Position numbers and translations under genes: made by a program
Part shown: in pieces, positions 26,833 to 61,392 of the stretch
How the letters are laid out: each line of letters starts with the position of its first letter
Numbering within the stretch: position 1 is the first letter of the stretch
From: Pristionchus mayeri
Taxonomy: Eukaryota; Nematoda; Chromadorea; Rhabditida; Neodiplogasteridae
Direction of reading: 5' to 3'
Length of the DNA: 64,000 nt
Assembly (NCBI GenBank): GCA_036245805.1
Contig: BTRK01000006.1
Location: 48,601,257 to 48,665,256, forward strand
Notes under the pieces: model-generated
Seen by the model: only the letters and a program-made list of their open reading frames with translations
Told to the model about the DNA's origin: nothing
The model's database searches: none

Positions 26833-27290
26833 AGGGATCCGGACATCAAAAATCAAGTGTGCCTTAAATTGCGTTTCATCCACCCCTTAGTTAAATGCAA
26901 TAAACTAAAAAAATTGAAAAAATTATTTAAGCAATAAAAATAAATAATTAAATATATAGTGTATTACTGTGGTAGCGTGTAAATTCGACGTTTCAAAAAA
27001 TTCAAAAAATATATATTAAAATTACTGTATTGGAAGCATCTTGATTATCGGTTTTCAGATCGGCTGGCCGGCCGTCTTCTTCGGCAGTTTCTTTGCTTTC
27101 TTTTTCTTTTTTTCAGTTATTTATGTTGTATTTCACTGTTTTGTGGCCTGAATTGTATTAGAAAAGAGGTCGGTCATGTATAATGCGGTTAGTGAAGTAA
27201 TCCGCCCCTACTGAATAGCGAACGAGCGTTTTCTGATCGCTTCATATTCATTCTAATTGCACGATTCTTGCTTACATTTGCTATCAGTGC

Positions 27291-30200
27291 ATGGCTACGG
27301 TTAACTGCTCCGCCTGCCCTCGTTGTTCCCACCAATGCCGCAAGATTCCCGACATTGCTGGGATGGGAAGGGAATGGCTGCTCCGCCTGAACCTCATCGA
27401 GGATGAGTTCGAGCTGCTGCAAGAGAAGGTTGCTAGGATTCAAGCAGAGGGGAGGCGAGCGTGGCTCTGCCCGAACCACTTCAAAGGAAGAAACCACCTG
27501 GACCGCGAAGGCCCTGAAGACGTGAGTCATAATGTATTTCACCTATTGGACATACTGTCACCGTTATCAGGGCCTCTCGGTTGTATAATCCAATGCTGAA
27601 TCGATAAAAAGCTCTTTCTTGTTTTGTAATTGATCATCGAATTTGCCGTTTGCTTCACTACGCGTTTTTTTTAGCATCGTCAGAAGGGAGAAGAGCCTCC
27701 GAGGCTCAATGAGGAGAGCGATGTACAGGTACAGGGCACAATTATTTACTTCCGAAAGACATTCGAATACTCTTATGCCCTGGGGAGGCCGAATAATATA
27801 CAATCCCTGAGGAGGCAATAAAACACACATACATGCACAAGACTATGTGACATTCCAGCCCGGAGTCTTTCAGCTAGAGCCAGCTCCTACCGTAGAGGCC
27901 ATGGTCGATGCCATGTCTGACCTACTTTTCCCATCGCCTCAACGCACCCAGTCTGGAGTATCTGGAGCATCTGGAGTACGTGCAACAATACCATTTGAAA
28001 TATTTATTCAATTATGAAAGCTAGAAATTGAACGAATAGAGAAAGATCAAACAACAGAACAGTGAAACGTTGATCATTGATTAGATTTCAAACAAATATT
28101 ACCCCTTTTCACGAACTGACACGTGCCCTGATCACTAGTAGACGCACTAGAGTGTACAAAAGTGAGAGAGCGCCACCTGGCAGATTCTTGACTAGTGGTT
28201 GTTTTGTTCACGAATTGGCTCCCTTCATTACTTGTGCTCTCTAACAGTAATAGTCGGTGAGAGAAAACGCAAACGAACTGAAGAGAGCATGCGAAGTCAT
28301 TTCCCCCGTGGCACGAAAATTGAATTTCTGCCGAACTAGGCCACGCTCTATCACATTGTAATATGGTGGAATAGTACATGAAACCAGAACACAAAACAAC
28401 AATTTTAGAACGGTAAAACTTATAATTCCCTATTACAATATAGCGAGTATTATTTACATCATTTCAGTCCTACATCCGATCTCAAGAAACGACCAACACC
28501 GAAGTGACCTCTGAGACGGGTGTTCAATGTGGTCCCCCTACCCCACCCAGTCACGACTACTTCCTAGTGAAGAAAGAATGCCTTCTTTCCCTCTTCACTC
28601 GTTGCCACCAGTGTGGGAAGAAGGAGATCGAGGAGGGCACATTCAAGTGCCGCACCGTAGGCTCGGCACTGGTCCTGCAATGGGAGTGTTTAGTGTGCGA
28701 GAGAGAAGTCGAGTGGCATTCTCAGCCTATGGTCGAAAGATACTTCGAGGGAAACCTCAAGTTGACTTCGGCCGTCCACACTACTTCTGTATCCCGCCCG
28801 GTTAGTCCATATAACTATGTTGAAAAAACAGAACAACCTAGTCCCAATGGCCGTAAAGTACAGTAGCCCGGAAACTGAATTCAGAGATTCCTGGACATGG
28901 GCAAGCTAATCGGTCTCGCACTTCCCTCTGAGCGGACAATGCGATGACAGCTCAAACGGATTGTGGTTCCCGCTGTGGATAAGGTCTTCATCAGACACAT
29001 GAAACAAGCTGAGGCCACCGTGCGAACGTCCAACATAGTTAGTGAATACTCCTTGCATTACTGCTGTTATGCCCTCCCTACATCCCTTCGACAGCCCTCC
29101 CCCCCCCCTCTCACCTGATCTCCTTCTTCTTCATCTCCCCGGCGAGGCAGCCTTCGCTGCCCACCCTCAATTGTTTCAATGAGGGGATCTACCCACTACC
29201 CCTGATTTCCCCCACCTTTGGTAGTGATCCACCATACTTCTCGCGTTCGAAAGTAGCCGAGCTCCAGACCCTGTAAAGCATAAATGTGTTAGGTATACTG
29301 TAGCATCTGAAATGACCGAGGGATACGGTAGGTATAGTAGTGATTTACAGTACGACACAATCGCAATCATTTCAAATTTCGAATTTCAGGCAGGCATTGG
29401 CATCGCAGTCGATGGGCGGTATTCCCATGTGGGCCGAACGGCACCCAATTGCACCGTTCCCTTCGTGGACATCGAGAGTAATCTCATCGTCCACGTCAAG
29501 AATATGCATAAGGATATGCCGGGGATAGGTAGTGTTAGTTGGAGTGAGTAATGATTATGTCCTTCTATTCCAGATGGGGTGAGTGGTCGTATGGTCAAGG
29601 AGGGAGTGAGGATGGGGCTGAGGGAACTGCAGGCGAAGCAACTCGTGGTTAGTCATCAACAAACACTGACCCATAATATACAAACTAGGAATGGTTTTTC
29701 AATGAATGGTTTATTTCATTCTCCTCCGATCGGATCGGTGAGAGATCATTGAGAAGTAAGAGTCATTTGGTGATAAACCATTCCTAATTGAAACGGGAAC
29801 CATGCTGGTTTGCTTTAGATCACATCGCTCGTATCTGACAATGATGCCAAGATATCCAAAATGATGCGTGATCTCTTTCCTGGAATTCAGCATCACTTGG
29901 ACTTCTGGCACATTGTCAAGAATCTGAACAAGGCGCTTCGCGAGGTACTCAAAATAACTTAGTTGACACAACAATATACTCAGAATATAGTATAGCACAA
30001 ATAGCAATATTTGCATTCAGCTAACAAAGCGCAAAGACTGCCCCCGCATCGAGCACTGGCGACGCGAGCTGATCGACCACTGCTACTTCGTCCATGGAAA
30101 GTTCGAGAAGGACAGGACGAAGGGAGTAGAATACATGAAAAGTTCGCTCGCTCACGTCGCTGGGTAGCATAAGAATTTTGAGAAGGTTAGCATGAATGTT

Positions 30201-31490
30201 GGAATGATTAATGAGCAGTATTAGTACACATTAGTACCCATGCACGTTAATAAATATGTACTTCAGGTCCCCTTCTTGAAAGGTATCAGCGAATGCCTCC
30301 ACGATGCTCTCCCCGATGCTTCAGATCACGAGATCGATCCGAAAAGCGCTGAGTTCGCTCATCTGAAGGAGGTCATCCTCAAGCCTTCCTTCATCCTCGC
30401 CCTGGAACGAGCCTCCCCCAAGAAGAACACGTCACCATGCGAATGGTTTAACAGCTTGCTGAACATCTACGCGCCCAAGCGGATAGCCAGGTTAGTAATC
30501 AATACCGTCATTACCTCCACTAATTGAAACGTCTAATATCCAGTTATTAACTCATCTATTTAGTTCGGCTGTGGCTTACGAGGATAAGGTGAGGATAAGA
30601 AGATGGGGGTGTTGCACCACAACACCATTGCGATGGCAGGCGTGCTCGGAGTGAGAAAGGAGAAGTCCTCCTACCAGACAAGAGCAAAGGGTAGAGAGGC
30701 AAAGTGTGTGAAGAGGAAGATGGAATCAGTGGACCAGTACTGGAGGAGAGAAGTTAGTATATTCAAACTAAATTAGTTCATCGAGCTATGCCGAAATTGT
30801 TAACAAAAAAAATATGTCTAACTAATATCTTGTCAGGTCTGGGATGAGGTGGAAGGAGTGGTCCGTGAGATGAAGGATGCTTCATTCCTCAAGAGGAAGG
30901 GAATCCCCGACTCCAATCGCTACATGGCTGCTCTCTATGCCGATGAGGAGGAGTCGGAAGGCGATTCGAAGGGAGATGAGAGCGATGTCTCCATTGAGTA
31001 CGGAGCGGCATACGGAGAGGATGTCGATTCAGACTCCAATCCAATCGCCCCCTCCGAGGACGATTCGGAGCACGAGGAAGGAGATGATACAGGCGAGTCC
31101 CGAGTAGAAGAAGTGCCAGTGGGAGAGGAGGGAGCTGAGGTAGTGGATGCCTCCTCTGGACCAGACTGGGATGAGGGAGAAGATGAGAAGAAGGTCGCCG
31201 GTGTTGGGAGTGGACGAGGAAGAGGAAGTGGAAGAGGGCGAGGGAGAGGACCTCGGCGAGGCCGCGGCAGGGGAAGAGGAGCATCCAGTGGGAAGGGAAG
31301 AGAGAAAGCTGATCGAGAGACGGAAGGAGAAGACGAGGAAGAGCCATCTACGAAGCAGGGAAGGAAGAGGAAAGCGAAGAGAGGGCAGGAAGATGGAGAA
31401 GATGGAGAAGATGAGGGATCCGACGGCGACTCGACGTACGAGCCACCCAAGAGAGGGCGAGGAAGAGGGCGAGGGAAGAAGCAAGCATAG
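27291..31490 (+). pseudogene. Kolobok-type THAP-DDE transposase, 12 exons, disabled
   Basis: Exons by splice sites and phase: 27,291-27,521; 27,675-27,728; 27,859-27,975; 28,468-28,800; 28,885-29,037; 29,390-29,528; 29,574-29,647; 29,819-29,944; 30,021-30,185; 30,267-30,490; 30,564-30,752; 30,837-31,490. Exon 1 is THAP-like (CSAC … W29 … C60 and H63 in LCPNHF). Exon 4 has paired CxxC motifs (CHQC, CLVC). Catalytic signatures: VDGRYS (exon 6), SDND and HHLDFWH (exon 8), CEWFNSLLNIYAPKR (exon 10). The exon layout matches the 57,216-60,207 homologue; exon 5 here and exon 6 there are both 153 bases. Damage: TGA at 28,945-28,947, TAG at 30,165-30,167, and an 11-base tandem duplication (30,580-30,590) that shifts exon 11; without it the frame continues KMGVLHHN as in the homologue. 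The last exon adds a long acidic and Arg/Gly-rich tail. Confidence 0.85.
28205..28300. repeat. Possible hairpin H6 in transposase intron 3
   Basis: GGCTCCCTTCATTACTTGTG...CTCTCTA pairs loosely with GAGAGAAAACGCAAACGAAC...GAAGAGAGC around AGTCGGT. It shares the inner words of H1-H5; outer pairing is weak. Confidence 0.4.
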
Positions 31491-31816
31491 GTGGGGGTAG
31501 AGGGTAGGGATCATGCAGGGTTCGTGCGTTATTGTTAGGATAGACATACAGTGAAACACTTGTTTAATCTCCATTTTCATACTTACTTGACGTGTGGTGT
31601 TGTTGATGTTGTTGTTGTTGCATTGTCCCATCGTCGTCTGGATGGCGCGTCTTTGATCTGCAAAAAATGGAATCGTTGTGAGAATTTATTAAATTGATTA
31701 TGGATGAGACACATTTCAAACATCTTTAGACTCTTCTGTGCTCTATACTAAATACGTAGCAGAGACTAACCAACAGACTGAGGGACACAACCATAGATGT
31801 GCGGGACTTGTATCGG

Positions 31817-32200
31817 GGGGGGGGGGGGGGGGGGGTGCCCATCCGGATGGGTATCCCCCCCTCGACGTATAGGGGTCATGGTCAAAAATCGATCGGTAGG
31901 TCAAGACTAAGTACCGTAACCAATCGATAGTACAGTACACCCTGATACCGTATATGGATACCGTAACCCGCGAATATCGGAAACTAACTTTATTTTTAAA
32001 AACTCCTGGTACCGTGCCCAATCGATTGTACAGTACCCATGTCACTACCGTAACCCAGTTACATGGGTCAGATCCAGTTCCAGGGTGTACTGTACAATCG
32101 ATTGGTTACGGTACTTAGTCTTGACCTACCGACCGATTTTTTTACCATGACCCCCTATACGTCGAAGGGGGGTGCCCTCCCCCCCCCCCCCCCGATTACG
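31817..32200. repeat. Short foldback with GGGTCATGGTC arms and poly-G/C ends
   Basis: Arms 31,860-31,945 and 32,085-32,170 pair (CGACGTATAGGGGTCATGGT and complement; GTACCGTAACCAATCGAT). A run of about 21 G (31,817-31,837) on the left and about 16 C near 32,180 on the right. Terminal words match the FB-4 arms at 20,380-20,410. Confidence 0.75.
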
Positions 32201-32984
32201 GTATCCCCATACCGTAAGCAAAGTACGGTACTTAGGGAACGGTGCAGTCATGAGCTACTCCTACTCTACACTTGTGAGTATACATTAAATCAAATTCAAG
32301 ATTCTGCAAACATAAAAATAAAAAAAGTAAAGCACCAAGGTATTCGGGATAATCTTACTGAGGGGACTCAGCCATCTCCTGATTGAAGCATGCAGAGAAG
32401 GGGTGTGCCTGGTAGAAGCGCACCAGTTCGTAATCGATGTTCATGTTTCTGGAAAGAAGACGTAATGAAACATTTGCCAAGACGTGATAAGCTATGCGGT
32501 TGACTGGCGATCGTAGGATTCAGGGTTGTTTTCGTACTCCCTCATTCCAGTGTTATTGCTCATGTGCAAGTATTGTATCAAAGGCTAGTCCCATGATCGC
32601 CGTCAGGAGTAAACGAACTTTAGCAACCAGATCTCACCTGAACTTCCTGAGCATGTCGATCATCTCCGCCTGCTTCATCTCTTCATATTGCTGATTAGCT
32701 TGGTTCGCACTTCCCCAGAATCGAGCATCGGCTCAGCACGAGCGGTCTAAAACAAAAGAGATTGTGGGAAAATGAAGAAATAACAAATTAGGAAAACGAA
32801 CAACGAAAACATTGAAACGATCTTACTGGAGAGCAGCTGGTAATCTCGAGACGATCATCCTCGACAGCGACGAGACCAGTGAGTAGTCCCTGGCAAGCCT
32901 CACCAGCAACCTTAACAACAAGAATAAATGGAGAAATTCAGGCTCGACATACTTCACTCATGCCAGCGCACAGTTCTCTGTCTA

Positions 32985-34275
32985 CAGGGTGTCCAAAAAG
33001 TATTGTTACACTTTTGAAACGCGAATTTTTTTAACATGTAGGTCGAGTTGTCAAAACCTGTAATAACACGTTTGAGCCCACCCTTCGGTGCGTTGAGGGA
33101 ACCTACTAATTAGTTTCCCATAGTCATGGTTCGTCCAAATCGCTATCGTCAAACTATTATCAACCTTTGGACCCTCGGCGACCCCCCAGATTCCATCAGG
33201 AGGAAGCTTCGTATTTCCCGAATGACAGTCTATCGCACCATCTCCCGTTTCAAGCAGTTGGGCACTGCGAAGGACCGTCCAAGATCAGGAAGACCCAAGA
33301 CCGCTCTCACTCAGAAGAACAGGAGAATCGTGGAGAAGAGAGTGAATCGCAATGCCAAACGATCCATCAGGAAGATGGCTAAGGATCTCAAGATCTCCAA
33401 AGGATCCGTGTGTGCCATCGTTCATTCTCTTCTCAAGTCCTACCCCTACAAGATGAGAAAGGGCCATGACCTCACTGATGTCCACAAGCAGAAGCGCCTG
33501 GAGAGATGCAAGCTGCTCCTTCAGCGGGCCGATCGTGGGGAGCACTTGACTACCGTTTACTCTGACGAGAAGCTGTTCTCAGTCGAGGAGGTCTACAACA
33601 GTCAGAACACCAGGATCATCGCCAAGTCTCCTCAGCAAGCTGACGCCAGAGGTAGAACCATCTCTCGCATTGCCCACCCCCAGGCACTGATGGTTTGGGC
33701 TGGTGTGTGCTCGACGGGCAAGACTCCTCTCGTGTTCGTGGATCCCGGGGTCAAGATCAACAAGGAGTACTACACCAGGGCAATTCTCCAGAAGGCTCTT
33801 CTCCCCTGGTCCCGCTCCCACTTCAAAGGGGCTCGCTGGACCTTCCAACAGGATTCAGCGCCTGCTCACTCGGCAAAAGTGACGCAGGCATGGTGTCGCG
33901 CCCATCTGCCCGACTTTATCTCGAGTGAGGAATGGCCCTCGAACTCCCCCGATCTCAACCCTCTGGACTTCAGCATTTGGTCAGTGTTGGAGAAGGAGGC
34001 CTGCTCTACTCGCCACAAGAACCGCGATTCCCTCAAGGCAGCCCTTCTCAAGGCATGGGAGAAGATCGACGTCCCTTACCTGCGGGCCGTCATCGACTCG
34101 GTCCCTCGTCGTCTCAGAGAGGTCATCGCGGCCAATGGAGGCCAGATCGAGTGATCGTGCATTGTTATGTTCATATGGTCACTGATAAATACTGTGCCCC
34201 GTTTGAGTTGTCTATGTTGCTTTTAAAGAAAGATACATGGTTTTATCCGTGTAACAATACTTTTTGGACACCCTG
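32985..34275 (+). mobile_element. maT element, copy 1 (1,291 bp, apparently intact)
   Basis: Perfect 27-bp terminal repeats beginning CAGGGTGTCCAAAAAGTATT, TA at 32,983-32,984 and 34,276-34,277. Inserted in the first exon of the captured eIF3h fragment, in the opposite orientation. Full-length transposase. Confidence 0.95.
33126..34154 (+). CDS. maT-family DD37D transposase
   Basis: 342 residues, uninterrupted, and the likely active cut-and-paste transposase of its element. Two N-terminal helix-turn-helix units (about residues 8-45 and 65-105) are linked by a GRPK motif at 55-58. Catalytic aspartates: D147 (VYSDEK), D243 (FQQDSAPAH) and D281 (NPLDFSIW). There are 37 residues between the last two, the maT spacing, and the last residue is Asp where Tc1 has Glu. 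Start chosen at the first ATG after the left terminus; MVRPNRYRQTI matches MTRPHQYRKSI in the broken copy at 18,318. Codon use is GC-richer than the surroundings. No damage seen. Confidence 0.93.
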   Translation: MVRPNRYRQTIINLWTLGDPPDSIRRKLRISRMTVYRTISRFKQLGTAKDRPRSGRPKTALTQKNRRIVEKRVNRNAKRSIRKMAKDLKISKGSVCAIVHSLLKSYPYKMRKGHDLTDVHKQKRLERCKLLLQRADRGEHLTTVYSDEKLFSVEEVYNSQNTRIIAKSPQQADARGRTISRIAHPQALMVWAGVCSTGKTPLVFVDPGVKINKEYYTRAILQKALLPWSRSHFKGARWTFQQDSAPAHSAKVTQAWCRAHLPDFISSEEWPSNSPDLNPLDFSIWSVLEKEACSTRHKNRDSLKAALLKAWEKIDVPYLRAVIDSVPRRLREVIAANGGQIE

Positions 34276-34627
34276 TACATGCTTGACGATCTTCATTAAG
34301 ACCAGAGAATCAATTTGAACTTAGTTCACGTTCGGGGCGGAGATTTGCGCCATCATGGTGGACCTGTAAATATAGACTGTGAGCAGTTCAAAGATAGAAA
34401 AGATCTCGCAACCAAACGGAAACATGATGATTTAACTATAATAAATATCAAATTCGCGATTTCATATTAGCGTGCCTTGCCAACACTAGCGTAAAAAGAT
34501 GCTAATAAGGAGAAGCTAATATATATCAGTGTATGCAACGCAAAACATGCAAGCATTTCTGATTGCCCAATGCAAGGAACAACTCAGTTTTCATACTACT
34601 CATTTCAATGGGCGTAGCCCAACAAAC

Positions 34628-35632
34628 CTAGAGGGAGGGGGGCGTCTCCTGCTTGACATCGGTCGCCGCCAGGAACTCCTTGCCGTTGGCGACGCCGATG
34701 TGGGCGCCCTCCCGCTTCACCAGTTCCTCTTTCGAGAGGATGTGCGCCTGTATTTTAAATAATTACATATAATTTTAAATGTTGACCAATAATGAAACGA
34801 CAAGCAAGTTGAATAATACACGTGCAAGTATAGTGTGGCTCGTGAGAGTACTCCCGAAGCAGCACTCTAGTAACGCAGTCTAGTTTCTTCAAATTCTCAC
34901 TCACTTTCTCGGTCGTTCCTCGGTCGGGCAGGTGGATGGTCTCGACCTTGACGAAGAAGTTGTACTTCATGTAGTCGGGATTCGTCAGCACCGCTCAGCA
35001 GTAGTGGTAGGAGTTCCAGGCCTCCTCGTGGATCGCCAGCGGTCCCTTGGGCGCGATCTTGAGGGTCAGCGTCGGGACCTAAACAATATAAAAATATTGA
35101 TTTATCGATTAAATATGCACTAATTAACGGATAATTAGCACTCACCTTCGACTGGAGGTGGTGGATCTTGTGCGTGTACTGGCCGCGGTCGTACGAGCCG
35201 TTGAAGAGCGCGTGGATAACTCATTTTTGAGCACCTACAAAACGGGATCGATAAGTAGAGGGAGCAGCTCATGACTGGTGGGGTGAGAAACGGAAACATG
35301 GAAGGCAGACGCGTAATTACATGGCGTGAGCGCGAGAATTGCGTCTATGGTAAACGCGGCAGAATTATTAGGTTTGGAACTCGGGAAAAGCGAGCGAGTT
35401 TCTGTATTTTTGTAAGCGGTCGGCAACATAAAATCTGGCCACATTTTTTCATTTGGCCCTAACAGACGAAGTGGAAAACACACCTTCCCCGCCGCCAGTT
35501 TCGGCCTTGCTCGCTTCTCCTCTACGGTCACTCCTCTACGGTCAGCGGAAGGACGGCATGGCTGAAACGGTTAAATAAAAAATATTAATAAAAAACAACA
35601 AAACAATCGTGGAAAACGCACTATTCCTTGAC
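34628..35632 (-). pseudogene. Phosphatidylinositol transfer protein gene fragment inside Kolobok-1
   Basis: Class I PITP-like N-terminal half, a cytosolic lipid exchanger in intact form. Exons: about 35,640-35,632 (end of VIVKEY), 35,561-35,484 (HAVLPLTVEE, a small tandem duplication and deletion, then EASKAETGGG), 35,234-35,146 (VLKNEL, then YDRGQYTHKIHHLQSK after a shift), 35,078-34,905 (VPTLTLKIAPKGPLAIHEEA, WNSYHYC, TGA at 34,995-34,997, AVLTNPDYMKYNFFVKVETI), 34,747-34,628 (AHILSKEELVKREGAHIGVA, ending in TAG). Splice sites and phases are mostly kept. The YTHKIxHLQSK and IHExAWN blocks are diagnostic. The last exon and the C-terminal half are missing or altered. Same orientation as eIF3h. 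Confidence 0.85.
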
Positions 35633-35640
35633 GATTACTC

Positions 35641-36422
35641 TCCGTGTTGCACGTTCTCCTCCGCCGACGACGGATGGACCGGCAGCGAACCGCTGAAACG
35701 GAGCGAATGAATGGTGAGGCTCGACAATAAAAGACAACACAAAGGAGGCAAAACTATTATGTAGTATCGACATTATCGAAGAAAAGTATTACAATCGCGA
35801 GGATGGTGGGAAAAGTCGGGAACAACTAGTCAACACGCCTTCCTACACGGTAGAGCGAACGAACACCGCATATAAGAACTGAAGTCGGCATTTCCACGCT
35901 CATATCAAGCCAAGCCGAATTAGATAAACACGCGATTAGTGAATGAGAAGCGGGTTGAGTCAGCAATATTTATATTACAAGTTGCTCGCAAGTCTAGCGA
36001 AACAATAGCAACTCGAAAAAAAACAGCTAGCAAATTTGGTACCATAAGCTAAAAAAAGGTGTATTCCTGCCTAAATTCATGGTGAGCAAAGTGAATTGGG
36101 CCATTCTGAAACGGAATATAACCAGTTTTGAAAAGAAACAACGTAAAAACAAGTGGAAAACGCCGATAAATGCGGAGCCCTGTCGCGGTCGCTAGGGGAA
36201 CCGGTAAATTCAAAGCCGGTAAATTGCAAAAATGGTGGGAAACTTCACCAAGGCTCACGCTACCGTTCAAATTGTTGAATTATTTTCATTGCGAATTTTC
36301 TCCACTCATATATTTTTTAAATTTTTATTTTATTTTTCGAAATAATATGTTTTCAATAGTTGATTTCAATAGAAAGAAACCAAATAATTTAAAAATATAA
36401 ACTTTGGGGCTCCCGGATCCCT
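35641..36422. other. Right subterminal region of Kolobok-1
   Basis: AT-rich, no coding exon recognised. It may hold the upstream region of the captured PITP fragment, since the PITP start lies next to it. Ends in CCGGATCCCT at 36,422. Confidence 0.5.
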
Positions 36423-37535
36423 TTAAGTTGTAGTACATATATGTGTCTCACTCCTCGCCAAAAATCATCAAAATCGGGAAGTGGAAAAAAATGGGGGCGC
36501 ACTTTCGTGTAGAGACCCCAAAATGAGTTCCGGAATCGAGTTCTTCCGAACCTTCAACTCCAAAAAAAACTTCCAAAACAACATATAAAGTTGTTTCCAC
36601 GCATATCATAACACTTCCATTGGTCATACACGATCATATGACCCAAAATTTGAAAATCGATATTTTGACCCATTTCAACTTGGGAGAGGGCGCTAATACA
36701 CACAATGGGTTTCTAATAATGTAGAAATGTCCCTCTAAACTAGTTAAAGAGAGGGGGCATCTATAAATGTGAGTTTTCAACTGGGGAGTTCCTGAGAAGG
36801 CGCAAAACTGTACTATAGGCAAAAGTAGTCACATATATCCGGCTTATGGCTCAAAATGTAGAGCACGATGAGCTGAACATTTCATCTGTTGAAAGTGAGT
36901 CTCTATCTTCTCGTTGAATAGTGCTACAGAGCTTAGAAGATGGCAGAAAACGACGAAAGAGGCGAGCGAGGGAGCGCTAAATAGAGGGGAGGGAGAAGGA
37001 GGTCAGAGGGCGAGAGCGCCAGACGGTTAGAGCACGTGCTCTCGGGAGATTCTAGCCTATTCCTGGCCAAATTACAGGCTCTGTAGCACGCTTCAACGAG
37101 AAGATAGAGACTCACTTTCAACAGATGAAATGTTAAGCTCCTCGTGCTCTACATTTCTAGCCATAAGCCGGATCTCTGTGACTACTTTTGCCTATAGTAC
37201 AGTTTTGCGTTTTGCCTTCTCTGGAATTCCTCAGTTGATAACTCTCATTTATAGATGCCTCCTCTTTCTGACTAGTTTAGAGGGAAATTTCTACATTATT
37301 TGAAACCCATTGTGTGCATTAAGGCCCTCCCCCAAGTTGAAATGGGTCAAAATATCGATTTTCAAATTTTGGGTCATATGATCGTGTATGACCAATGGAA
37401 GTGTTATGATATGCGTGGAAACAATTTAATATGTTGTTTTGGATGTTTTTTGTTGATTTTGAGCACAAATAATGACAGTTGAAGGTTCGGAAGAACTCGA
37501 TTCCGGAACTCATTTTGGGGTCTCTACACGAATTC
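36423..37535. repeat. FB-1 copy 3, right part
   Basis: Resumes with TTAAGTTGTAGTACATA. Arms 36,518-36,940 and 37,085-37,531 pair (AAAATGAGTTCCGGA / CCGGAACTCATTTTGG). The spacer at about 36,945-37,070 contains AAATAGAGGGGAGGGAGAAG in the same orientation as copy 2. It lacks the far right tail found in copies 1 and 2. Confidence 0.85.
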
Positions 37536-46585: not shown

Positions 46586-46899
46586 TATTTAAAAATAATT
46601 CATACAGATCTGCTTGATTCTTAGGCAAGCGCCCTCATATATTTTAAAGAAAAATTAAACCCATATAACTTCCCGAAATCAAGGAGTAAGGGTGATCTTA
46701 TTAAATCAGCTCGGTATATATGCTATATTTTGAGGATACCCGTTCAGGTAGCACAACTCGTTAAGGCAGACCATCAACTCACGCAACGCGCGGCCCCCAT
46801 CTTGTCTATTCCTGCACTGATCGTCTAGCCCGCCAATGTATGCGAGCGCATGCTCCGTTAGCCAAACGAGTAATAGTGTGTATTTCATTGACGCAATTC

Positions 46900-48420: not shown

Positions 48421-48663
48421 GAATAGTGAAAAGGTTGCATTTTAACAAAAGTAGCTGGTTCAACTCGAGCAGGTCGATCATTCACTCTCGCACTCGTACA
48501 ACAACGGACAGGAATGCAAAATACAAATAAAGAGAGAGAGAGAGAGAGCGTAATATTTGGATGACAAATATCCCACCACGATTCCTCTGCCGATGCAATG
48601 TGTATACTGTATCTTTCCAGGCTTTCTATTGATAACAAAGAGTCATGCTTGATACCAATAAAA

Positions 48664-50803: not shown

Positions 50804-50981
50804 GATAGGATATCAAATTAGCGATAACCCTTGAATCAGTCGAACATGAAACAGATATTGATGTAAAAATCTTCAATTCAATACCTTTGAATAGTCTGCA
50901 TACGACCAACACTTACAAAAATTGCGCTCTAACTTCGATCCCCTTTCCCTCTCCTAATCTTCTTTCCAAGCAACCATCACA

Positions 50982-51137
50982 AGATTAGACTTTCAAAAAC
51001 AACTTTCCAAATAGTTGTTTAAGATGCAAATCATCCCTCCCACTCCTCATTTCATTCGCTCACTCACCAACAGAGCGGATCATTTACATCTTAAACAAAT
51101 ATATGGATAGTTGTTTTTTGAAAGTCTACACACGATT
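50982..51137. repeat. Short hairpin element
   Basis: AGACTTTCAAAAACAACT... and ...AGTTGTTTTTTGAAAGTCT, with TTGTTTAAGATG / CATCTTAAACAA inside. Confidence 0.75.
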
Positions 51138-51432
51138 CGATACTATCAATCTATTTCTTGCACAAACTCATGATATATTTGCACTTGCGGTGTCATAAGT
51201 ATTACACCTGCCAAGAATGCGCGCGTTCTGAGTGGACGGTACACGTTCACTATTGAATGTGCGTTCCAATCGGTGGGCCAATCAATCATTCCTGCTTTCC
51301 AAATTAGTAGAGAAAAGAGTTCTTCGCATACTCTCTCTCTTGCACGTTTACTTTCGAGAGCACTTTGGACTTCCCACTGGTTTGAGGACGCGAATAAGAA
51401 CTAAAGTAAACATAACTCATAGCGTTCATCTA

Positions 51433-52698
51433 TCAGGTTGTAACATAAGTTTTGTCGCGTCCAATCTCTTATGCATTTTAACCTCAGAAATTCTTCGAAT
51501 TAATTTAATCTCGATTTCGTTATTCATCATCAGTGAGGGCCTTCGTACTCTTTCTTACGCGCTTTACTTCAGTCCTGTCAAGGCAGTTGAGGAGGCACAT
51601 TAGTCAGACAAAGTTGTACTGATATAAGGATTACAAATCATTTTCACGCATCAGCTCTTCTTGAAAAGGATAAATTATGCCGATTTTGTGTGATTTGCGT
51701 AAAGTACTACATATGTGCATAATTTTGAACCACTCACAGATAATGACAAACGAAAATCGTTCTAGAAATGTAGACGAGTTTGTATAATGTGGATGGTTGG
51801 TGACGGTCGCGAAAACTTTCGTAAGCCGAATTTTCTTCTCAATAGATATCCAGATCCAAATAGAGGTGGAATATAGTTCACCCAAAGTGGTCAGTATGCA
51901 GACAAAGTTTGGGGTAGATTGGGTTCTGTTGAGATAAGTGGCTCCATTCAGAACGATGGTATGTAAATTAAACTAATGAAATCGGCACTTTGTTCATATT
52001 CCTACCTCGCACACATGTTCAATATCTGATTTGTTATGTCCATCATAACCATAAACCCTTCCCTTACTAGTATCTACTTGGGATAAGTTTGGAAATAAAT
52101 AGCTTTTGAATGACAATCTTTAATTCGAAACACCTAAACTTGCATATTTTGGTAAAATTGTGCGCGAATTGAATTAATAAAAATTCAAATTTCCCACAAG
52201 TGGAGTGTTCTTTCTCTCACTTGTTTAATGATAAATTATACCTCCATGAGTGGTAATTGGAACGCACTTATGTTAGTCACTGTTGTTGCAATTCTGGATT
52301 CAGAAGAGTTGGTCAAGTTGGCTACGAATCAGCGGCTAACCTTACACTCAGTGAAGTATATCTTTGATTCCGCTCAACATAGCACCATATCTGGCGTATA
52401 TTTTGAAAGAGCATTGACGGGGTATATCACCAAGCTGTAGAAGTTTGGTTCATTATTCATCTCTGCGAACTAGCACCTGATCAAACGAATTAAAAAAATC
52501 TGCACCAAATTTAAATCAGTTCATATTAATATTTTTCGCATAGCCAGCGTGCGCAGTTCAGCTCTACCCTATGGTTTGAATGTGCATGAACACCCCAAAC
52601 ATATACTAGGAGGTCAGGCATTGATAATGTTTGAGAAGTATCCTTCATGGAAATATTGTGAACCTCCGAAATGCGACAAAACTTATGTTACAACCTAA
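51433..52698 (+). mobile_element. Mariner-type element (1,266 bp), transposase unreadable
   Basis: Terminal repeats TCAGGTTGTAACATAAGTTT / TTAGGTTGTAACATAAGTTT, both extending to TTGTCGC, TA outside each. The frame with RTLSYALYFSPVK near 51,540 resembles the inside of the 465-bp MITE at 18,501. Confidence 0.8.
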
Positions 52699-55074
52699 TA
52701 TAAAATGTGGAATGCGAACCACACTATGCTCCACTTTCGCTTCTCCCAGAGATGTAGGGAACAACTTTGGTGATATTGCTATGGTGAGCTCTTCCTTTCA
52801 TTCGTTTCGCGGTTGGAAATAGAACTATTTCAACAAAAAAAACAATGGATGGTAATTCATTGATGCATTCGATTCGGAAATATTTTTTTATCCAAACGAT
52901 TCACTTACTTTCTTCCGATACTTTTACAATACTGACTAGAATTGTTTAATTACAATGTAAAATTGAGAAGATCTACCTGCTCAACATAGCTCTTCCAGCG
53001 CATTGTTTCCGGTCGCAATCCGCGGAGCGAATGTTGGACGTCTAAGTCAGTATCCGGGAGGAGATGGAGGAGCTAGAGGAGGGAATGCGGGGATTGGCAC
53101 CGGCGCAGCAGGAGGTAGAGCAGGAGTCGGACCTTCTGTTGGTGGAGGTGGTGGTGGTGGAGGAGCTGCTGCTGCTGCAAGAGGAGGAGGAGTGGACGCA
53201 GCTGCACCCGGTCGGTGACGCTCTAGTCTCGTTTTTGCTGACAACTTTTATGACTTTTGACTTTTGTGAGCATATGCTTTCGAAAATTTGTGCGTGAGAA
53301 AGGATTTTGTACGGTGTGAAAAGTTGATGATGAGTGATATTTCAGCTGCATCAGCTGCTTCTTCAGGTCCTGCACTGGAGGTGGAGGATGTAAGTGTTGG
53401 TTTTTTGCGTGCCCTAGTTGAATTACATAGAACACAGCATGTACACGACGTTATTATACGTATGATTTTCCAATATCACTGTTTTCCTATAAACAAGCAG
53501 GATCGAAGCGAGAAAAAAATTGTGTGACCACAAAATTTTTTCTCGCAAAGGCGTCTAGTTTTCCTGCATTTTTATCCATTTGAATTGCATTTTTTCGTGA
53601 TATATCCATTTGAATCACAACTCATATCTTGCAGCGGACGCTGTTTCCGGGAAATACCCTGGTGGAAGCAGTGCAAGTGGAGGCGGCAAACCTGCACCCG
53701 CTACAGCACCCCTATCGGCCCCCGCACCATCCCCGGCTCCAGCTCCAGCCACGGCCCCAGCACCCGCTCCAGCCTCCATGCCGTCCCCTGCACCAGCCTC
53801 GGCTCCTGAACCAGCTCAAGCTCCTGCCCCCGCCGCTCCCTCAATGGCTTCGGCACCTTCCGGAGAGTACGCTCGAGGAAGCAGTTCAAGTGCAAGTATC
53901 ACAAGTGGAGGCGGAAGCGCCGTACTTACATCTGCCCCTGCTCCATCCCCAGTACCCTCTACTGCTTTCGCTCCAGAGCCAGCGCCGGCCCCAGCACCAG
54001 CTCCTTCCCCCGCGCCGGAACCAGCTCTGGCACAAGCACCCGCTCCTTCCTCCGCCTCGGAACCAGCTGCGGCCCCTGCACCCGCTCCTTCCCCCGCCAC
54101 GGAACCAACTCCGGCACCAGCACCCGCTTCTTCCCCCACCTCGGAACCATCATCGGCCCCAGCACCAGCTCCTTCCCCCGCCTCGGAACCAGCTTCGGCT
54201 CCTGCGCCCGCTCCGGCTCCAGCACCAACCCCCATTGATGCACCAGCACCATCGCAAGCTTCCGAAGCATACGTTAAAGGGACCTGGAAACGTAAAACCA
54301 TATTATCCCTGTGCGCGTAGAATGATCCAAAAACATCACTAAAAATAATAAAAAAAATTTCAAAAAATAATTAAATTTAATTCGTGATTTTAAAAATACG
54401 GTTCGAATTAATTGTTCCGCGTGTTCGCCCCGATTACGATAAACATAGTTATGCTCGGATCAGTTGGCTGCTTGGATCCGGCCATGCTGACCCGCTGATC
54501 GGCAGTCAGGGTTGGGAGGACGCGACTGTGCCCTCGACTCTGCGTCAAGTTTGCCCATATTTGGCTGATGTTTTCCTGTTTTTCACTCGTATTTCGTGCA
54601 TTATTTCCGTTCTTCTTTTACCGAGACCGGTAAACACCTTAATTAACGGCATACATACTGTTTTGGCTTCAATTAATGCCCGTGTTGTATAGGGATCATG
54701 CTAATATCGATTTACCCTTATTCCGGTACACAGACACTCACATGTCGCATGTTTACTCATTCCCCCAGTTGTTTACGCTCCATTTGCAAGTTGTTGACTA
54801 GAATGCACGTGCGCCCGCTCGTTCTCTCGCACTCTCATTCTCCCGCGCGTTCTCGCGAAGTGCATCCTTCTCTCCCCTCGTCAATTGCTATTTTAGCTCT
54901 CGAGCAATCTAGTCGCCCGGTCTTTCCATGTCTATTTTTCGTCTCTGTATAAACTAGTCACTTATACGCTGCGGCCCCTCTCTGTACCACACTAGGGAAT
55001 ACACAACATCCCTCTGACGCCAATGTTTTATTCAGTTTTCGCTCTTTTACGTGAGAATTCGCTTTAACTCGAGC

Positions 55075-55082
55075 CATTTCAG
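55075..55082 (+). promoter_or_regulatory. Predicted 3' splice or trans-splice acceptor before rps-18 ATG
   Basis: CATTTCAG lies 16 bases upstream of the rps-18 ATG with no visible upstream exon. In nematodes this is the usual form of a spliced-leader acceptor; that use here is inference. The preceding ~800 bases, including CT-rich blocks near 54,820-54,900, may be the captured promoter. Confidence 0.45.
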
Positions 55083-55098
55083 TTAAGGCACGACAGCC

Positions 55099-55655
55099 AT
55101 GTCGTCCCTCATCATGCCCGAGAAGTTCCAGCACATTCATCGCGTGATGAACAGCTATTGGTCCGGTTATTGGTTATTGGTCCCTGAACTTCACATTTCG
55201 GTTATTGGTCCCTGAACTTCACATTAGACTCTGTTTGTTCGAGTACTTATTTACATGATTAGAATGCTTAGAGTCAGGGTCAGGCTAATCAAGTTCGTGA
55301 TAACGCTGGTTGCTATGTACTGCTGTTTTTCAGGGACTTGACCGGACGAGCTGAAGAGCTCTCCGATGAGGAGATCGAGAAGATCACCACCGCCATGCTG
55401 AACCCTACCCAGTACAAGATCCCCGACTGGTTCCTCAACATAAAGAAAGACTACAAGGGCGGAAAGACTGCCCAGGTGTGTAATATTCTTAGAACCATAT
55501 TTCATTTGTTTATATCTTCACATTTGGCGATTGCAAAACATGTTGTTCCTGTAGAGGTTACCATGGATATGCTTTAGGTTCTCTCCACCGGAATGGACAA
55601 CAAGTGGCGTGAGGAACTCGAGCGTCTCAAGAAGATCTGCTTCAACAAAGGCTAG
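55099..55655 (+). pseudogene. rps-18: Ribosomal protein S18 gene fragment inside Kolobok-2
   Basis: Small-subunit ribosomal protein S18 pieces. Exon A 55,099-55,157: MSSLIMPEKFQHIHRVMNS. Exon B 55,334-55,475: [35 protein letters not shown]. Exon C 55,578-55,655: VLSTGMDNKWREELERLKKI, then CFNKG and stop. Introns with GTGTGT.../TTTAG and TTTTTCAG are kept. About 30 residues between A and B and the whole C-terminal third (the GLRHYWGLRVRGQ region) are missing, so the product could not be a working S18. Plus strand, convergent with the transposase. Confidence 0.92.
55172..55225. repeat. Two direct repeats of 26 bp
   Basis: GGTTATTGGTCCCTGAACTT followed by CACATT occurs twice with a 28-base period, exactly where the missing part of rps-18 would be. 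Confidence 0.9.
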
Positions 55656-56400
55656 TTTACGTTTATTTATTAAAATTACGTTCCATATTCTAATTTATAA
55701 GTATACCATAGCATGTATTGCCCCCGAATCTTGCATAAGTTATTTAGTTTGGTAGAGATTGAGGATAAGCGGGCTCCATTTTATTCTTTGACGGGAATAT
55801 ATCTTCGGATGTCAATCGCAGCGTAGTGCATTCATGTGTATTCATTTTACACCTTGCAAAGTTGCGTTCATAGCTCACTAATAGGTTATTTATTACCTTT
55901 ACTATGCAATTAATATTTATATTTATTTATAGAATTTAAATTTTCAAGTTAAAAAATGTTACAGCTCGAAAACATTTTTCCGATTATCGTTTTTTTTGGA
56001 TTCAGCGTCCTTATGGTTTTCGACTTTACTAAAATGTTCTCCGTATTTTTGCGGTTCGAAAACGGTGCTGTGCGTAACATAGCATGAAAAATATCGAAAT
56101 TGACACCTACCTACTTGATTTGAAGAAAAAATACCACATGATTTTTCATGTTTTTTCTATGTTTCATTTTCGTTCTAAAACTTGCTAAGGTGGCGTAAAC
56201 ATAAAATCGATAGGATAATACGCTTTGACTTTATACTGACAACATGTTTGATTATATCGTGGAATTGAGTTTGGCTTTTTAGGAGAGAAAAATGGCCTCA
56301 TAGGGAAAGGCTAGGCTTAGACACACTTCCCCGCACCAATGTGCTTGCGAGTAAAAAAACTTTTTTATGTGAGCATTACCAGTTTCTACAACACTTCAGG
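55656..56400. other. Spacer between the captured ribosomal gene pieces
   Basis: AT-rich and without recognised exons. Ends with CACTTCAG, the acceptor before the rps-2 piece. Confidence 0.4.
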
Positions 56401-57088
56401 AGTTCGAGCTCATCGACTATCTCTGCTACAACCTGAAGGATGAGGTCCTCAAGATCATCCCCGTCCACAAGCAGACCAGGTTTGTGATATTGCTGATCGG
56501 TGAAAACTTTCCTCACCTGGGCCGACAAATCGTTGACATAGGAAGTATGTGTACAAGGTCGTTTGTTGTACTTGTTTACTTCGAGCATTGCCGACATAGT
56601 CTACTTTTATGTAAATATGTTCATTACAGAGCCGGACAGCGAACCCGCTTCAAGGCCTCCGCCGCTATCGGAGACTACAACGGTCACGTCGGACTGGGGC
56701 CACCGCCATCCGTGAGTGGGGACTCGGCTTCATGTCTCTAGCATATCAGTCCTTGATAAGTATCATGTGTGACCAAGTCGGTACCAGGTCCGTATCTCAC
56801 GGTACCATTTCGGAACCCGACCGCCCCGGGACGGTACCACGAGGTACTGGGAACATATCTCGTGGTACCAGGAATCAATCACATGATGCCGGGACCGTAC
56901 CACGTGGTACCCGATCACGTAAATATTGTTTATCTCAATGTGCCATGTAAAAAATATTCTTATTCATTTTGCAGCTGTGGATGCAGAGGAAAGGAAAGAG
57001 ACAAGGAACGGATGCCCGCGAGCAAGCTCGGACGTCTCGTCAAGGACAGAAAGACCACCACCCTCGAGGAGATCTACCCCGAGAGTGG
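56401..57088 (+). pseudogene. rps-2: Ribosomal protein S2 fragments, scrambled, inside Kolobok-2
   Basis: Three exon-like pieces of RPS2 (uS5). First, 56,401-56,479: EFELIDYLCYNLKDEVLKII then PVHKQT. Second, 56,630-56,711: RAGQRTRFKASAAIGDYNGH then VGLG; the intron between them has intact GT and AG and rejoins codon AGA. After GLG about seven codons are deleted and GCCACCGCCATCCG (ATAIR in the parent) follows in another frame. Third, 56,975-57,088: DKERMPASKLGRLVKDRKTT then TLEEIY, which in RPS2 comes before the first piece. The rest of the protein is missing. Confidence 0.9.
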
Positions 57089-57215
57089 GTTACTTTCGCT
57101 TATATGAAAACACGTATCCTTTCCTCTCAATATCCCTTGACAATTTCTAAAATTAGGTGTCCGATGGATGATTGCTTTGTATTTTTTATCAACATATAAG
57201 CGAGAATCACAAGTA

Positions 57216-60207
57216 CTAGAATTCTTGGGATTTGTCCTCTCCCGCATTCTCCTGAGGTCCCATCTCTTCCTCACTAGAGTCCCCGAAATCGAAACCCTCT
57301 TTCTCATAATCCTCATAACCCGACTCCAGCTGAGCCTTCTCCTTCTCCTCCCACCAACTAATGAGCTCATCGTAGACATCATCTCGGGGAACACCCATTC
57401 TTCGCATCACCCGTTGCTCGCTCAACTCGTCTCTCACGCGTAGACTTTCTTCCATAATCTGTAATTGCTCATACATATAATTCCGAAAACAGTCTTTCTT
57501 ACCTCATCCCTCCAACAATGGGTGCCTTTTCCTCTCTTTCTCTTAATCGCTGCTACTAATCTTCCCTTCCTAGAAACGAGCGCATTTCCAATCTCTCCTC
57601 TCGTCCCTAATATGTCATCAAAAGCGAGACTATTATAGTGAAGAATGGACACTTTGGTCTTCAACGAGTAATAGTGGGGAGCGCTGCAATCGAATATTAT
57701 TTCCTTTCGATCATTCACTGACCAAGCGAATCTTTTCGGCGAATACATAAGACTGAGCGAGTGAAAAGATTCATTGATTGAAGTGTCGATGAGCGAGGCA
57801 GCAGAGAGGAAAGCCTTTACAAACTTGGGGGCGAACAGCATCTCTCTAACCGTTTCTAATTCTTTGCTGCCAGCCTACAATTAGTGACACTCTCGAAATA
57901 GTTTAGCTTTCCCCTATTCAAACCTTCAATGTCAATCGCTTTTCTCCCCTTTTCATCCTCTTCAGTTTCCCATGTTCGCACTTCGTGATCAATTTGAACT
58001 CATCACTCTATAAACATAACCTACCGATGACACTCTACTGCATTAGTATCACCTTAGCCCACTTGTGTTTGCCCAGGATATGCATAACAAACGACTGAAC
58101 AACTTCGAGGGCGCGAGGGCGATCTTCTTTCTTGGGATATGTCTTGTGCACATGGAACAGGTGGTTGAAAAACATTCGGTAGAAGGGTGCGAGGGCGGGA
58201 TTTGCTTTCACCATCTTGAATGGTGTATGATTACGAAATTTATTAGATTTTCGTGTACACCCGACCTGCCACCATTCCTTTCTCAGGGACTTCTGAACGT
58301 GCCACCAGTCTAGCGTCATCTCTATATTCGCTGTCTTTGGATCCTCGCGCAATATCTTGTTAACCATCATATTCTGATCACCTACTCTCCGTCTAGAATA
58401 CGTGGAGGAATAGCTTTATTATTTATAAACGTCATCACCTTATTTCTATGCCGTTATCGATTAATTCGACAAGCGCTTGGTGGGTGCCCACTGATTCCAT
58501 ACGACAGGAAACTCCGTCTGAGATTGCAGATTATTCGTTTTAGTGCGGCAATTGTACCTATTCCTGGTAATCCCTTGTGTAATACGGCCGACGCGATTGC
58601 AAGTTTCGTATGGCAATCGATGACCGTGTTTTTATTGTTAGTTGCCGTGTGGCCGGGAGCATCAAACTGTCCATCGATAGATACTTCTAGTCCATTACCC
58701 TATTATAGAAATATCATAGATTTTCAAAAATACATGAGGATACCAAAGATGCATCAACCGCGATTTCTCTTGCCATTTCTTGCCAGGAATCGTATACTCG
58801 TTCGATAGATACGCTCCCAATTTCACGAACTGTCTTGCGCATAATGCGGTCAGATGGCAAATCGAGTTTGAGAAGAAATCCAAGGTCACACAACCTCTGT
58901 AAAACAGGAAACCTCCTAGCCACAGATACTGCTTCTTACCGGAGTAGGGGTTCCAGTTTTAAATGCAGCAATGGCGAGAGAATGATTGAACGAGAATACT
59001 TGTCCTCTCCCTTTTCCCACTTTCTGTTGGGTCTCAATGGTCACAACGGCATTGCATTTGTGGTTCAGACAGTGATAGGTGACAACCCATGCACTTCCCT
59101 CTCTCCTCATATCGATCAGACTCTGGTCGAGTACCGGTACTCCGAGTGCTACAACTAGTAACTGGCAAAATTACCCCGAAATGACTCACCTGTGACTGGA
59201 TAGTAGCCATTGTTGCAGTAGAGCGATCACTTTTGAACCTCTTTGGTATGACCTCATCCATTTGATTCCAGGAACCGACGTCGTCTGGATCGTCGTCGGA
59301 GTCGGGAGGGGGGAGGCGCCATCGAGGAACCTTTTGTTTTTTTTAGATTTCATCAATTGTTTCGTGTCATTATTGCATGCTTAGTTGTCCCGATATTTAT
59401 TGTTCAAAATTTTCATGATTACATTTATGTAAAGTTTATTGTTCAAAATTTTCATGATGACATTTATGTAAAATCATTGATTATGTATTCTTTGAGTTCT
59501 GAATAATATACTTTCCACTTACATCTGTATGCGAAGCGATTGGAGAAAGTGATCGGGAGCGACGAACCGAACCTGGTCCTGCCTGGAACGGGCATGTGCT
59601 CCATGATCAGTCGATTTAGTATGTCTAATTGAGGATTGTAGGTCGATGATTCTATTGTGTCAAGATCGATCAATAGTTTGATGTTGTGTGCCTTATAGTT
59701 TTACTGCAGTTTATCGTAGATATAAATCTCCCATTGATGTTCATTCAGATATCGTTAGGCTGCAGCTGAACTCACTTGTCTTCGTGGGGGTTGATGGTAA
59801 ACTGGTTGTGTGGCAGCGAATTGGGATGGCGGAACGAGATCCGCTGGTCTAGTCGTGCGTAGGGGGACAGTAGGGATGCAAACAGGGCGGACAACGACAC
59901 TTCGGCGCTGAAGCAATGGGCAGGTGTATTCGTCACGCGGGCAGAAGAGGTTCATTTTAGTAAAACAGTTTATAGAACTCACGTCCTTGGGTAGTTCATC
60001 GGAGGGGGAGTCGAAGTGGCGCAAACACCATCTAGGCTCTTTCACCGAAGAGTGTCTATCCCTTAGACGAGCTGTTCCCTGTTCATCTAGCCCCTGTCTG
60101 AGCAGCCACTCCCTTTGAAGCAGAGGTCTCGACCGATGAGGGAAGTTCCTTGTACTCTCCGCCTCCTCCCCACAGAGGAAGCAACGTCTCTTCCTAACGC
60201 TAGCCAT
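57216..60207 (-). CDS. Kolobok-type THAP-DDE transposase, 12 exons, apparently intact
   Basis: Predicted exons: 60,207-59,983; 59,907-59,776; 59,691-59,523; 59,284-59,190; 59,161-58,940; 58,896-58,744; 58,699-58,558; 58,517-58,439; 58,392-58,053; 58,007-57,924; 57,874-57,503; 57,458-57,216. They total 2,256 bases (751 residues plus stop) with matching phases. Exon 1 is a THAP-type C2CH module: C9, C12, W34, C61, H64. Catalytic core: SIDGQFDAPGHTA (D341), GDQN (D411) and MTLDWWH (D434), NESFHSLSLMYSPKRF (E582). Compared with Kolobok-1 it lacks the acidic/RG tail and one CxxC pair. The exon 4 acceptor (59,284) was chosen for phase and is the least certain. ATG at 60,207 follows the right terminus by about 310 bases. 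It likely mobilises Kolobok-2 and perhaps related elements. Confidence 0.82.
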
Positions 60208-60333
60208 GCTGAATTGGGTCTCGGCGAGCATAATCAAACAAAAATGGAAATAAGTAAAATTACAAAAAAATATAAAAGATCTATAAGACAAAAAGCACAG
60301 TAAGCCGAGACTCTTAGCCCGTGAAAATAAAAC

Positions 60334-60398
60334 TTCAAGACCGGAGCCGGAATTAATACCTTTTCAACCCGAGTATTAATTCCGGCTCCGGTCTTGAA
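60334..60398. promoter_or_regulatory. Perfect 26-bp inverted repeat upstream of the transposase
   Basis: TTCAAGACCGGAGCCGGAAT... and its exact complement, separated by about 13 bases, lie between the transposase start and the right terminus. Could be a subterminal binding site or a hairpin; function is inferred from position only. Confidence 0.7.
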
Positions 60399-61392
60399 CT
60401 TTGATATTCATTCTTAGCTTAATTATTGATTTTTATTTTTTTATTTTTTGACAAAGATGAACGGAAAGGTGATACATTTCATATGGGCGGCAATGTTCTA
60501 AGAGTGCCAGGTCCCTTTAAGGGAAGTAGTTCAAGTGGAGGTGGAAGGTCCGGTACGGCCCATTCCTCAGCATCAGCCGAGCTCCCTCCCCAGCTCCGGC
60601 CCCGGTACACGTTCCAGCCCCTGTCCCGGCCCCTGCGCCATCCCCAGCAGCGGAACCAGTTCCGGCCGCCGCCCCGGCTGCTGGGCCTGCCTCTGCCCCC
60701 GCCCCCCGCCCCAGCTGCTCCTTCCGCAAGCTACTCTGGAGGAAGCGGTGCCAGTGGAGGCGGAAGCTCTGCGACAGCTCCGGCCTCAGCATCATCGGCT
60801 GCTTCCGGAGGTGATGCTGGAGGCGGATCGGCAGGGGCCTCCGCTGGATGTGAGCTATTCTTTCCTTTAATTATCAATCATCTTTCATCTCTCCAGTGCG
60901 CGGCTTTGGCTAGCACCATTCAATTACCGGGAGGGACAATTAGGTGTATGAAGAATGAAGGTGCCTGACGCCGAGGTGTGAAAAAAACATGCCCACCGAC
61001 GACAGAGAAAGCGTTTATTAACGTGTGTCATCTCCTCTCGGTATCAGGTGTATTTCTCAACTTTCGCGGGTGGTAATCGGGCGTTGCTAGTTCCTTGTTC
61101 TCGAGGTCGCGTTGTATCTGACCGTCTCGAACCCTGATTACTAGGGTTGTCAAACGATCAACCCTACAAATTAACAAATTGCAACCGCAGCCGCTGCATC
61201 TGCTGGTGGGGATGCATCGGGAGCAGCCGCAGCCAAATATGGCCGTCACCGTGTCGTCGGCCCGTTGAGCAGGCTGCTGCAGCAGCCGCAAGGCGCGCAT
61301 CCCACAGTGACGACCACGAAGCTGCAGTTGCGGTCGCACGTGAGATGCGTGTGGCAGGCGGAAGATTTGTGAGCAGGGAGGCCATTGCGTAG

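Follow-up and report, generated by a model that had tools for sequence, protein, structure and literature searches.

We find that a stretch of 64,000 nucleotides from the nematode Pristionchus mayeri (positions 48,601,257-48,665,256 of contig C6; hereafter, the window) holds two transposable elements in which pieces of host genes lie beside a transposase gene. The first, E1 (26,833-36,422), carries pieces of eIF3h and of a PITP gene, and the second, E2 (54,278-60,516), carries pieces of RPS18 and RPS2. We read both as copies of two Kolobok-type lineages, probably autonomous, whose host-gene passengers have been amplified along with them; we put the probability of this reading at roughly 0.8. 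A further Kolobok-like lineage in the same genome carries adenylate kinase pieces in the same layout. An earlier note on this DNA had identified the four gene pieces, and profile and Protein Data Bank (PDB) matches, together with alignments to host DNA, bear it out. It had also treated E1 and E2 as separate local captures, and here it was mistaken: the pieces are inherited features of multicopy families. These families, and a junction region shared among copies, rule out independent capture in the window copies.

Two element families and their transposases

Both elements are bounded by perfect 10-bp terminal repeats flanked by TTAA, as the earlier note had reported. E1 reads TTAA-AGGGATCCGG ... 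CCGGATCCCT-TTAA, with the left TTAA at 26829-26832, the left repeat at 26833-26842 (+ strand), the right repeat at 36413-36422 (- strand), and the right TTAA at 36423-36426. E2 reads TTAA-AGGGACCTGG ... CCAGGTCCCT-TTAA, with the corresponding parts at 54274-54277, 54278-54287 (+ strand), 60507-60516 (- strand), and 60517-60520.

These ends recur throughout the assembly (290.8 Mb in 73 contigs), for which all genome-search counts given here are lower bounds. The genome-wide terminus search that the earlier note had proposed found 179 sites for a 14-mer of the E1 terminus (0 for a control read backwards) and 222 for that of E2 (5 for the control). Among the first 100 sites listed, many form plus/minus pairs with a spacing of about 8.2 kb for E1 or 6.3 kb for E2. 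Since the pairs keep a constant length at sites unrelated to one another, solo termini of separate elements, which the earlier note had named as the alternative, are ruled out.

We fetched 20 E1-type loci, picked by eye as plus/minus pairs less than 10 kb apart among the first 100 of the 179 sites, and compared them with E1, counting alignments of at least 80 bases. Every one of the 20 matches the host PITP stretch. Ten are close to E1 (97-100% per alignment), including one with internal deletions (L026), and two are rearranged (L027 and L020). The remaining eight (L019, L022, L025, L028, and L031-L034) belong to diverged subfamilies that carry PITP and have both ends in common with E1 at about 75-96%, and in which the central part of the E1 transposase region finds no DNA match. 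A diverged E1 relative of 10.1 kb, X10 (C2:41,432,122-41,442,247), has PITP adjoining eIF3h beside the same transposase. Among five E2-type loci (L037-L041), L038-L040 are 97-100% identical to E2, the diverged L037 stands at 70-86%, and L041 has a terminus and a 65% stretch in common with E2. The loci L020 and L041 are palindromic: their outer flanks are mutual reverse complements, as in inverted duplications or assembly artefacts.

The passengers are correspondingly numerous. A search for the eIF3h segment (40 of 45 candidates scored) gave at least 48 matches, including 30 that span the full length at 98-100%, and one for the RPS18 segment (40 of 70 scored) gave at least 44, with 32 at 98-100% over 349-351 of 351 bases; both counts include the window copy and refer to passenger segments alone, not to whole elements. 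At five further loci from the eIF3h search, a PITP match lies within about 0.5 kb. PITP-domain matches number at least 162 (150 of 346 candidates from a profile search scored). We grouped 90 PITP matches from contigs C1-C3 into 69 loci. For 54 of these, an exact AGGGATCCGG or AGGAATCYTG terminus stands no more than 5 kb away, compared with 0.75% of 2000 random points. Passenger copies occur on all six large contigs (C1-C6), which rules out an assembly chimera. Two classes of unrelated repeat families bearing PITP exons were also considered and rejected: four loci fetched have related ends, with the terminus AGGAATCYTG.

The transposase gene of E1 occupies 27291..31490 on the + strand, and that of E2 occupies 57216..60207 on the - strand; each has several exons, and gene ends were set from open reading frames (ORFs), not splice sites. 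The E1 transposase query returned 11 proteins passing E 0.001, all from Pristionchus (P. fissidentatus 5, P. mayeri 3, P. entomophagus 3), and the E2 query returned 15 (P. mayeri 5, P. pacificus 5, P. entomophagus 3, P. fissidentatus 2). The transposase exons of E1 and X10 differ at dN 0.035 and dS 0.196 over 461 codons, with no frameshift or stop (ratio of nonsynonymous to synonymous rates, omega, 0.18). For E2 and L037, omega is 0.11 over 456 codons, with one frameshift gap. The transposases are thus under purifying selection between subfamilies. Within families, omega is 3.78 (E1-L030) and 0.57 (E2-L039), from too few changes to rest on. E1- and E2-type elements are probably autonomous.

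Catalytic motifs of Kolobok type were assigned by eye in E1/E2 as DGR/DGQ, DND/GDQ, LDFWH/LDWWH, and CEWFNS/NESFHS. In E1 they lie in IAVDGRY (29402), SLVSDNDAK (29825), LDFWH (the DxxH motif, 29897), and SPCEWFNS (30432), and in E2 in VSIDGQFD (58661-58684), RVGDQNMM (58365-58388), MTLDWWHV (58296-58319), and SINESFHS (57758-57781). The earlier note had called these THAP-DDE transposases; we call them THAP-like. Both proteins start with a THAP-like C2CH pattern (C-x2-C ... C-x2-H, by eye), and one P. mayeri protein matched by the E1 query (P0125) has the UniRef name 'THAP-type domain-containin'; a Pfam scan of single transposase exons, up to E 1, gave no THAP hit. The E1 protein also has a GRG-rich tail. 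Most Kolobok members have a zinc finger between DxxH and E; by eye, neither transposase here has a clear motif of this kind, and one Kolobok lineage is described as lacking the finger (PMC9587614).

TTAA stands at both ends in 27 of the 27 units laid out (E1, E2, and 25 fetched pairs). The fetched pairs had been picked with a pattern containing TTAA, so the independent cases are the two window elements and the adenylate kinase lineage. Beyond TTAA, the flanks of E1- and E2-type units are not duplicated, on inspection. Mutator-like (MULE) elements make target-site duplications of 8-9 bp; the flanks here share TTAA alone. Both elements have 5'-AG...CT-3' termini, fitting the 5'-RR ... YY-3' form that, as stated in PMC9587614, separates Kolobok from piggyBac, which likewise uses TTAA. 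Kolobok type is the best reading of TTAA, termini, and by-eye motifs.

When the E2 flanks (53601-54277 and 60521-60968) are joined with one TTAA, a 374-amino acid frame opens across the junction, and E2 probably lies inside a coding exon of a repetitive Ala/Pro- and Gly/Ser-rich protein. A second frame is also open (337 amino acids), as expected from low-complexity sequence. The joined E1 flanks have no long open frame (at most 69 codons).

Host-gene pieces and candidate donors

All four gene pieces align to host loci at the DNA level, introns included, which confirms the earlier note's view that capture was from genomic DNA and rules out retrocopies. Host reference stretches were taken for PITP (L043, 9.4 kb), RPS18 (L055, 2.8 kb), eIF3h (L056, 4.0 kb), and RPS2 (L050). 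Identity to E1 and E2 is about 77-87% over longer stretches of exon plus intron and reaches 98% in exons.

Behind its transposase gene, E1 has an inverted-repeat insert, then eIF3h and PITP on the - strand; terminal DNA makes up the last 0.5 kb or so. The insert (31812..32196) consists of nested inverted repeats flanked by poly-G and varies among copies. The eIF3h piece comprises an exon with NMNIDYELV (32363..32461; 98% to host 2189-2287), exons with an intron (32614..32986; 86% to host 1727-2099), and an upstream part (34276..34384; 93% to host 1619-1730); its concatenated exons give E 5.4e-7. It is split by a Tc1/mariner-like insertion on the + strand (32987..34275; ORF 33126-34154, 342 amino acids), beyond which it resumes; in alignments of at least 80 bases, none of the other 20 E1-type loci shows this insertion. 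In the copy L035, the eIF3h segment aligns with host 1602-2099 and 2172-2287. The PITP piece, also on the - strand, comprises part of exon d (34629..34752; 87% to host) and a stretch of upstream DNA with exons a-c and introns (34899..35921; 77% to host) that has an in-frame TGA in exon c. Two single ORFs match Pfam IP_trans (E 2.5e-4 and 6.1e-3) without reaching Pfam's cut-off; in the genome search, the window copy (C6:48636152) scores 57.2 bits and exceeds it.

In E2, all passengers are on the + strand. The RPS18 piece has the start-codon exon (55085..55153; 97% to host 713-781) and an exon, an intron, and the start of the next exon (55335..55651; 78% to host 1213-1550), with a PDB match at E 1.9e-14. 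Its alignment begins 14 bases ahead of the host ATG (host 713 versus 727). RPS2 (E 1.7e-14) is present as piece B, with IDYLCYNLKDEVLK, an intron, and AGQRTRFKA (56363..56698; 80% to host 1580-1949), and piece A, with LGRLVKDRK (56955..57078; 89% to host 2092-2211), which is upstream in the gene and downstream here. This swapped order is found in E2, L038, L039, L040, L051, and L052, so a single simple copy does not explain it. The arrangement (56363-57078 in E2; likewise L051 and L052) suggests two captures, a circular intermediate, or duplication with loss.

As the earlier note had suggested, we compared the pieces with parental loci, which located the PITP junction region and candidate donors on other contigs. 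These are C3:45.602-45.606 Mb for PITP, C4:28.631 Mb for RPS2 (the sole match covering profile positions 16-65 among at least 46 Pfam matches), C4:29.045 Mb for RPS18 (78% to E2), and C5:49.935 Mb for eIF3h. Capture may instead have been from an allele or from the gene of a close relative. No TTAAAGGG-type terminus lies within the host PITP, RPS18, or eIF3h stretches. The host PITP exons read from C3 match a P. mayeri protein at 92% over the whole query, with a differently spliced gene model, and a 271-amino acid protein from a 1,051-base contig at 98%; a pattern search of the 9.4-kb stretch did not locate the first exon. Elsewhere on C3 (22589491-22592371), PITP-family matches (Pfam positions 1-26 and 167-206) with no known Kolobok terminus near may mark a second host PITP gene.

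The element joins host PITP sequence in the same place in E1, L019, L025, L033, L032, L022, X10, and L045. In E1, L019, L025, and L033 the join is at host AATTCGG; in L032, L022, X10, and L045 a 12-base alignment gap follows directly after AATT, and the exact join is less certain. A junction region common to eight aligned copies makes it most likely that PITP was captured once, before the related subfamilies split.

In every one of the 13 element copies examined, the PITP exons are broken by one or more frameshift gaps or stops, which rules out a functional transposon-borne PITP gene. The RPS18 pieces of L037 and L051 each contain one stop and one frameshift gap. We infer that the passenger pieces yield no functional protein.

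Shared layout and competing explanations

The earlier note had described a layout in which the pieces lie beyond the 3' end of the transposase, ahead of the far terminus, and converge with the transposase. This is confirmed for E1 and E2 and holds again in the adenylate kinase lineage. The P. mayeri protein P0123 is 42% identical to the E1 transposase query, and its catalytic-region pattern has 47 genome sites, mostly of two sequence types. Downstream of one such motif, at locus L061, adenylate kinase exons lie on the opposite strand; concatenated, their best PDB match is adenylate kinase isoenzyme 1 (E 1.4e-29). A 601-base kinase stretch has 58 matches at 40 loci in the genome. The transposase motif is within 8 kb of 30 of these loci, and in 30 of 30 the kinase is downstream in one relative orientation; conversely, kinase sequence lies within 8 kb of 32 of the 47 motif sites. 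Direct terminus patterns gave no end at the kinase locus. Comparison of two copies located the end: in both, homology stops at TTAA, beyond the kinase pieces on the 3' side. The common place and orientation across the three lineages are real.

We propose that each lineage took up genomic host segments (exons and introns, with upstream DNA in the case of PITP) after the transposase stop and ahead of the 3' subterminal region. Host DNA may have entered when templates were switched in gap repair or at stalled forks, and the short AATT at the PITP junction would fit microhomology. Template switching in repair or replication has been proposed for Pack-TIRs, gene-carrying elements with terminal inverted repeats (TIRs) (PMC8277862). 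The passengers would then hitchhike, spreading by transposase-driven transposition, and their common place would reflect the tolerance of this interval for inserts.

Some observations weigh against our reading. No homologue labelled Kolobok was returned by the transposase queries, and Pfam and UniRef call the relatives 'Mutator-like' (PF20700). On contigs C1-C3, 15 of the 69 PITP loci, the host gene included, have no exact terminus within 5 kb; similarly, 10 of 40 kinase loci lack the motif and 15 of 47 motif sites lack a kinase match within 8 kb. The compared exons of RPS18 (E2) and eIF3h (E1) have no frameshift or stop, although the genes are incomplete. Host-element comparisons of PITP and eIF3h give omega values below 1 (0.17-0.64), and comparisons of PITP between elements give 0.36-0.83; early constraint on the passengers is possible. 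Passenger omegas (overall 0.17-1.38) are biased, coming from local alignments with broken codons omitted and host and element branches mixed, and thus neither prove nor exclude such constraint.

The PF20700 assignment, made for 5 of 7 E1-transposase relatives scanned and 11 of 15 E2-transposase relatives (precomputed), with one weak DDE_Tnp_ISL3 match as the sole other Pfam assignment, would suit Mutator-like elements, just as TTAA would suit piggyBac. Given flanks that are not duplicated beyond TTAA and the AG...CT termini, we regard either placement as very unlikely. A less remote alternative, though still an unlikely one, is that non-autonomous Pack elements captured the genes and that recombination later moved these into transposase-bearing copies. 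The PITP subfamilies that have both E1 ends and no DNA match to the transposase middle speak for this order of events. The diverged X10, however, already has transposase, PITP, and eIF3h together, and subfamily B (L032) looks like a deletion derivative, being 94% identical to X10 over PITP.

The earlier note had also taken the shared layout to point to a preferred capture place. The layout itself recurs in three lineages; the preference is not demonstrated, since surviving inserts are expected in the only non-essential internal interval. A true hotspot, to which transposition or repair directs foreign DNA in convergent orientation, would explain why different genes occupy the same place and orientation in three lineages, the kinase doing so at 30 of 30 loci that have a motif nearby. 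However, there are about five genes in three lineages, too few to tell a hotspot from tolerance plus chance: if orientation were a coin toss, all would be alike in about 6% of cases, and inserts elsewhere would wreck the transposase or the ends. We consider a hotspot improbable and favour tolerance of inserts. Less probable again is that selection keeps the passengers, with antisense, germline-expressed host sequence shielding the element from small-RNA silencing or altering its expression. Passengers do persist in subfamilies with different termini, the orientation is convergent wherever read, and all five genes (eIF3h, PITP, RPS18, RPS2, and adenylate kinase) are what we take to be housekeeping genes. 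Yet the pieces are decaying, E1 and X10 differ in theirs, and capture may simply favour genes that are open and highly expressed. Equally speculative is a camouflage in which autonomous lineages repeatedly take pieces of essential germline genes, in antisense at a fixed site, and the self sequence weakens small-RNA silencing.

Relation to known gene-capturing elements

At least three lineages in one nematode genome carry multicopy passengers, with conserved transposases and with candidate donors in the same assembly. Pristionchus thus offers a way to test where captured DNA comes from, how its site is chosen, and what essential-gene fragments do to small-RNA silencing. Pristionchus pacificus is a laboratory model, and relatives of the E2 transposase are annotated there too. 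These elements also carry a warning for annotation: PITP-domain matches number 162 or more, and a transposon terminus stands beside 54 of the 69 loci on C1-C3.

Gene-bearing Helitrons likewise capture and amplify gene fragments. Pack-MULEs and other Pack-TYPE elements are typically non-autonomous and have other transposase families and target-site duplications. The carriers described here keep their transposase (exons intact in E1 versus X10), and PITP carriers with no match to the transposase middle also exist. In capturing and amplifying gene fragments, they resemble the plant elements (PMC8616336). The nematode transposon Turmoil-1 of C. elegans also incorporates two host-gene sequences, but in its inverted terminal repeats, and it is a different element (PMC2572040). 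KolobokP is a Kolobok superfamily element with an extra coding region; its extra protein is a homing endonuclease (PMC9587614), whereas the extra sequences here are decaying host-gene fragments.

The earlier note knew of no Kolobok element carrying host genes, and we found none in the open-licence literature, as represented mainly by titles and the openings of abstracts, with Repbase and subscription papers outside its scope. The closest parallel is with animal Pack-TIRs. A survey of 100 genomes reported 370 of them, and 323 belong to hAT or TcMariner (Tan et al. 2021, PMC8277862). Multicopy cases are described there as rare (four in frogs and alligators and one fly family), and the word 'Kolobok' does not occur in the main text of that paper. 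Like Pack-TIRs, some of which have spread by transposition (PMC8277862), the elements described here hold host DNA between transposon ends, within a unit of TIRs and target-site duplication, and for PITP, RPS18, and eIF3h the candidate parent gene lies elsewhere, in a stretch with no TTAAAGGG-type terminus. Unlike the Pack-TIRs of that survey, they comprise three Kolobok-type lineages with tens of passenger copies and a conserved transposase alongside. The best reading is that gene-carrying Kolobok elements extend the Pack-TIR kind to a new carrier.

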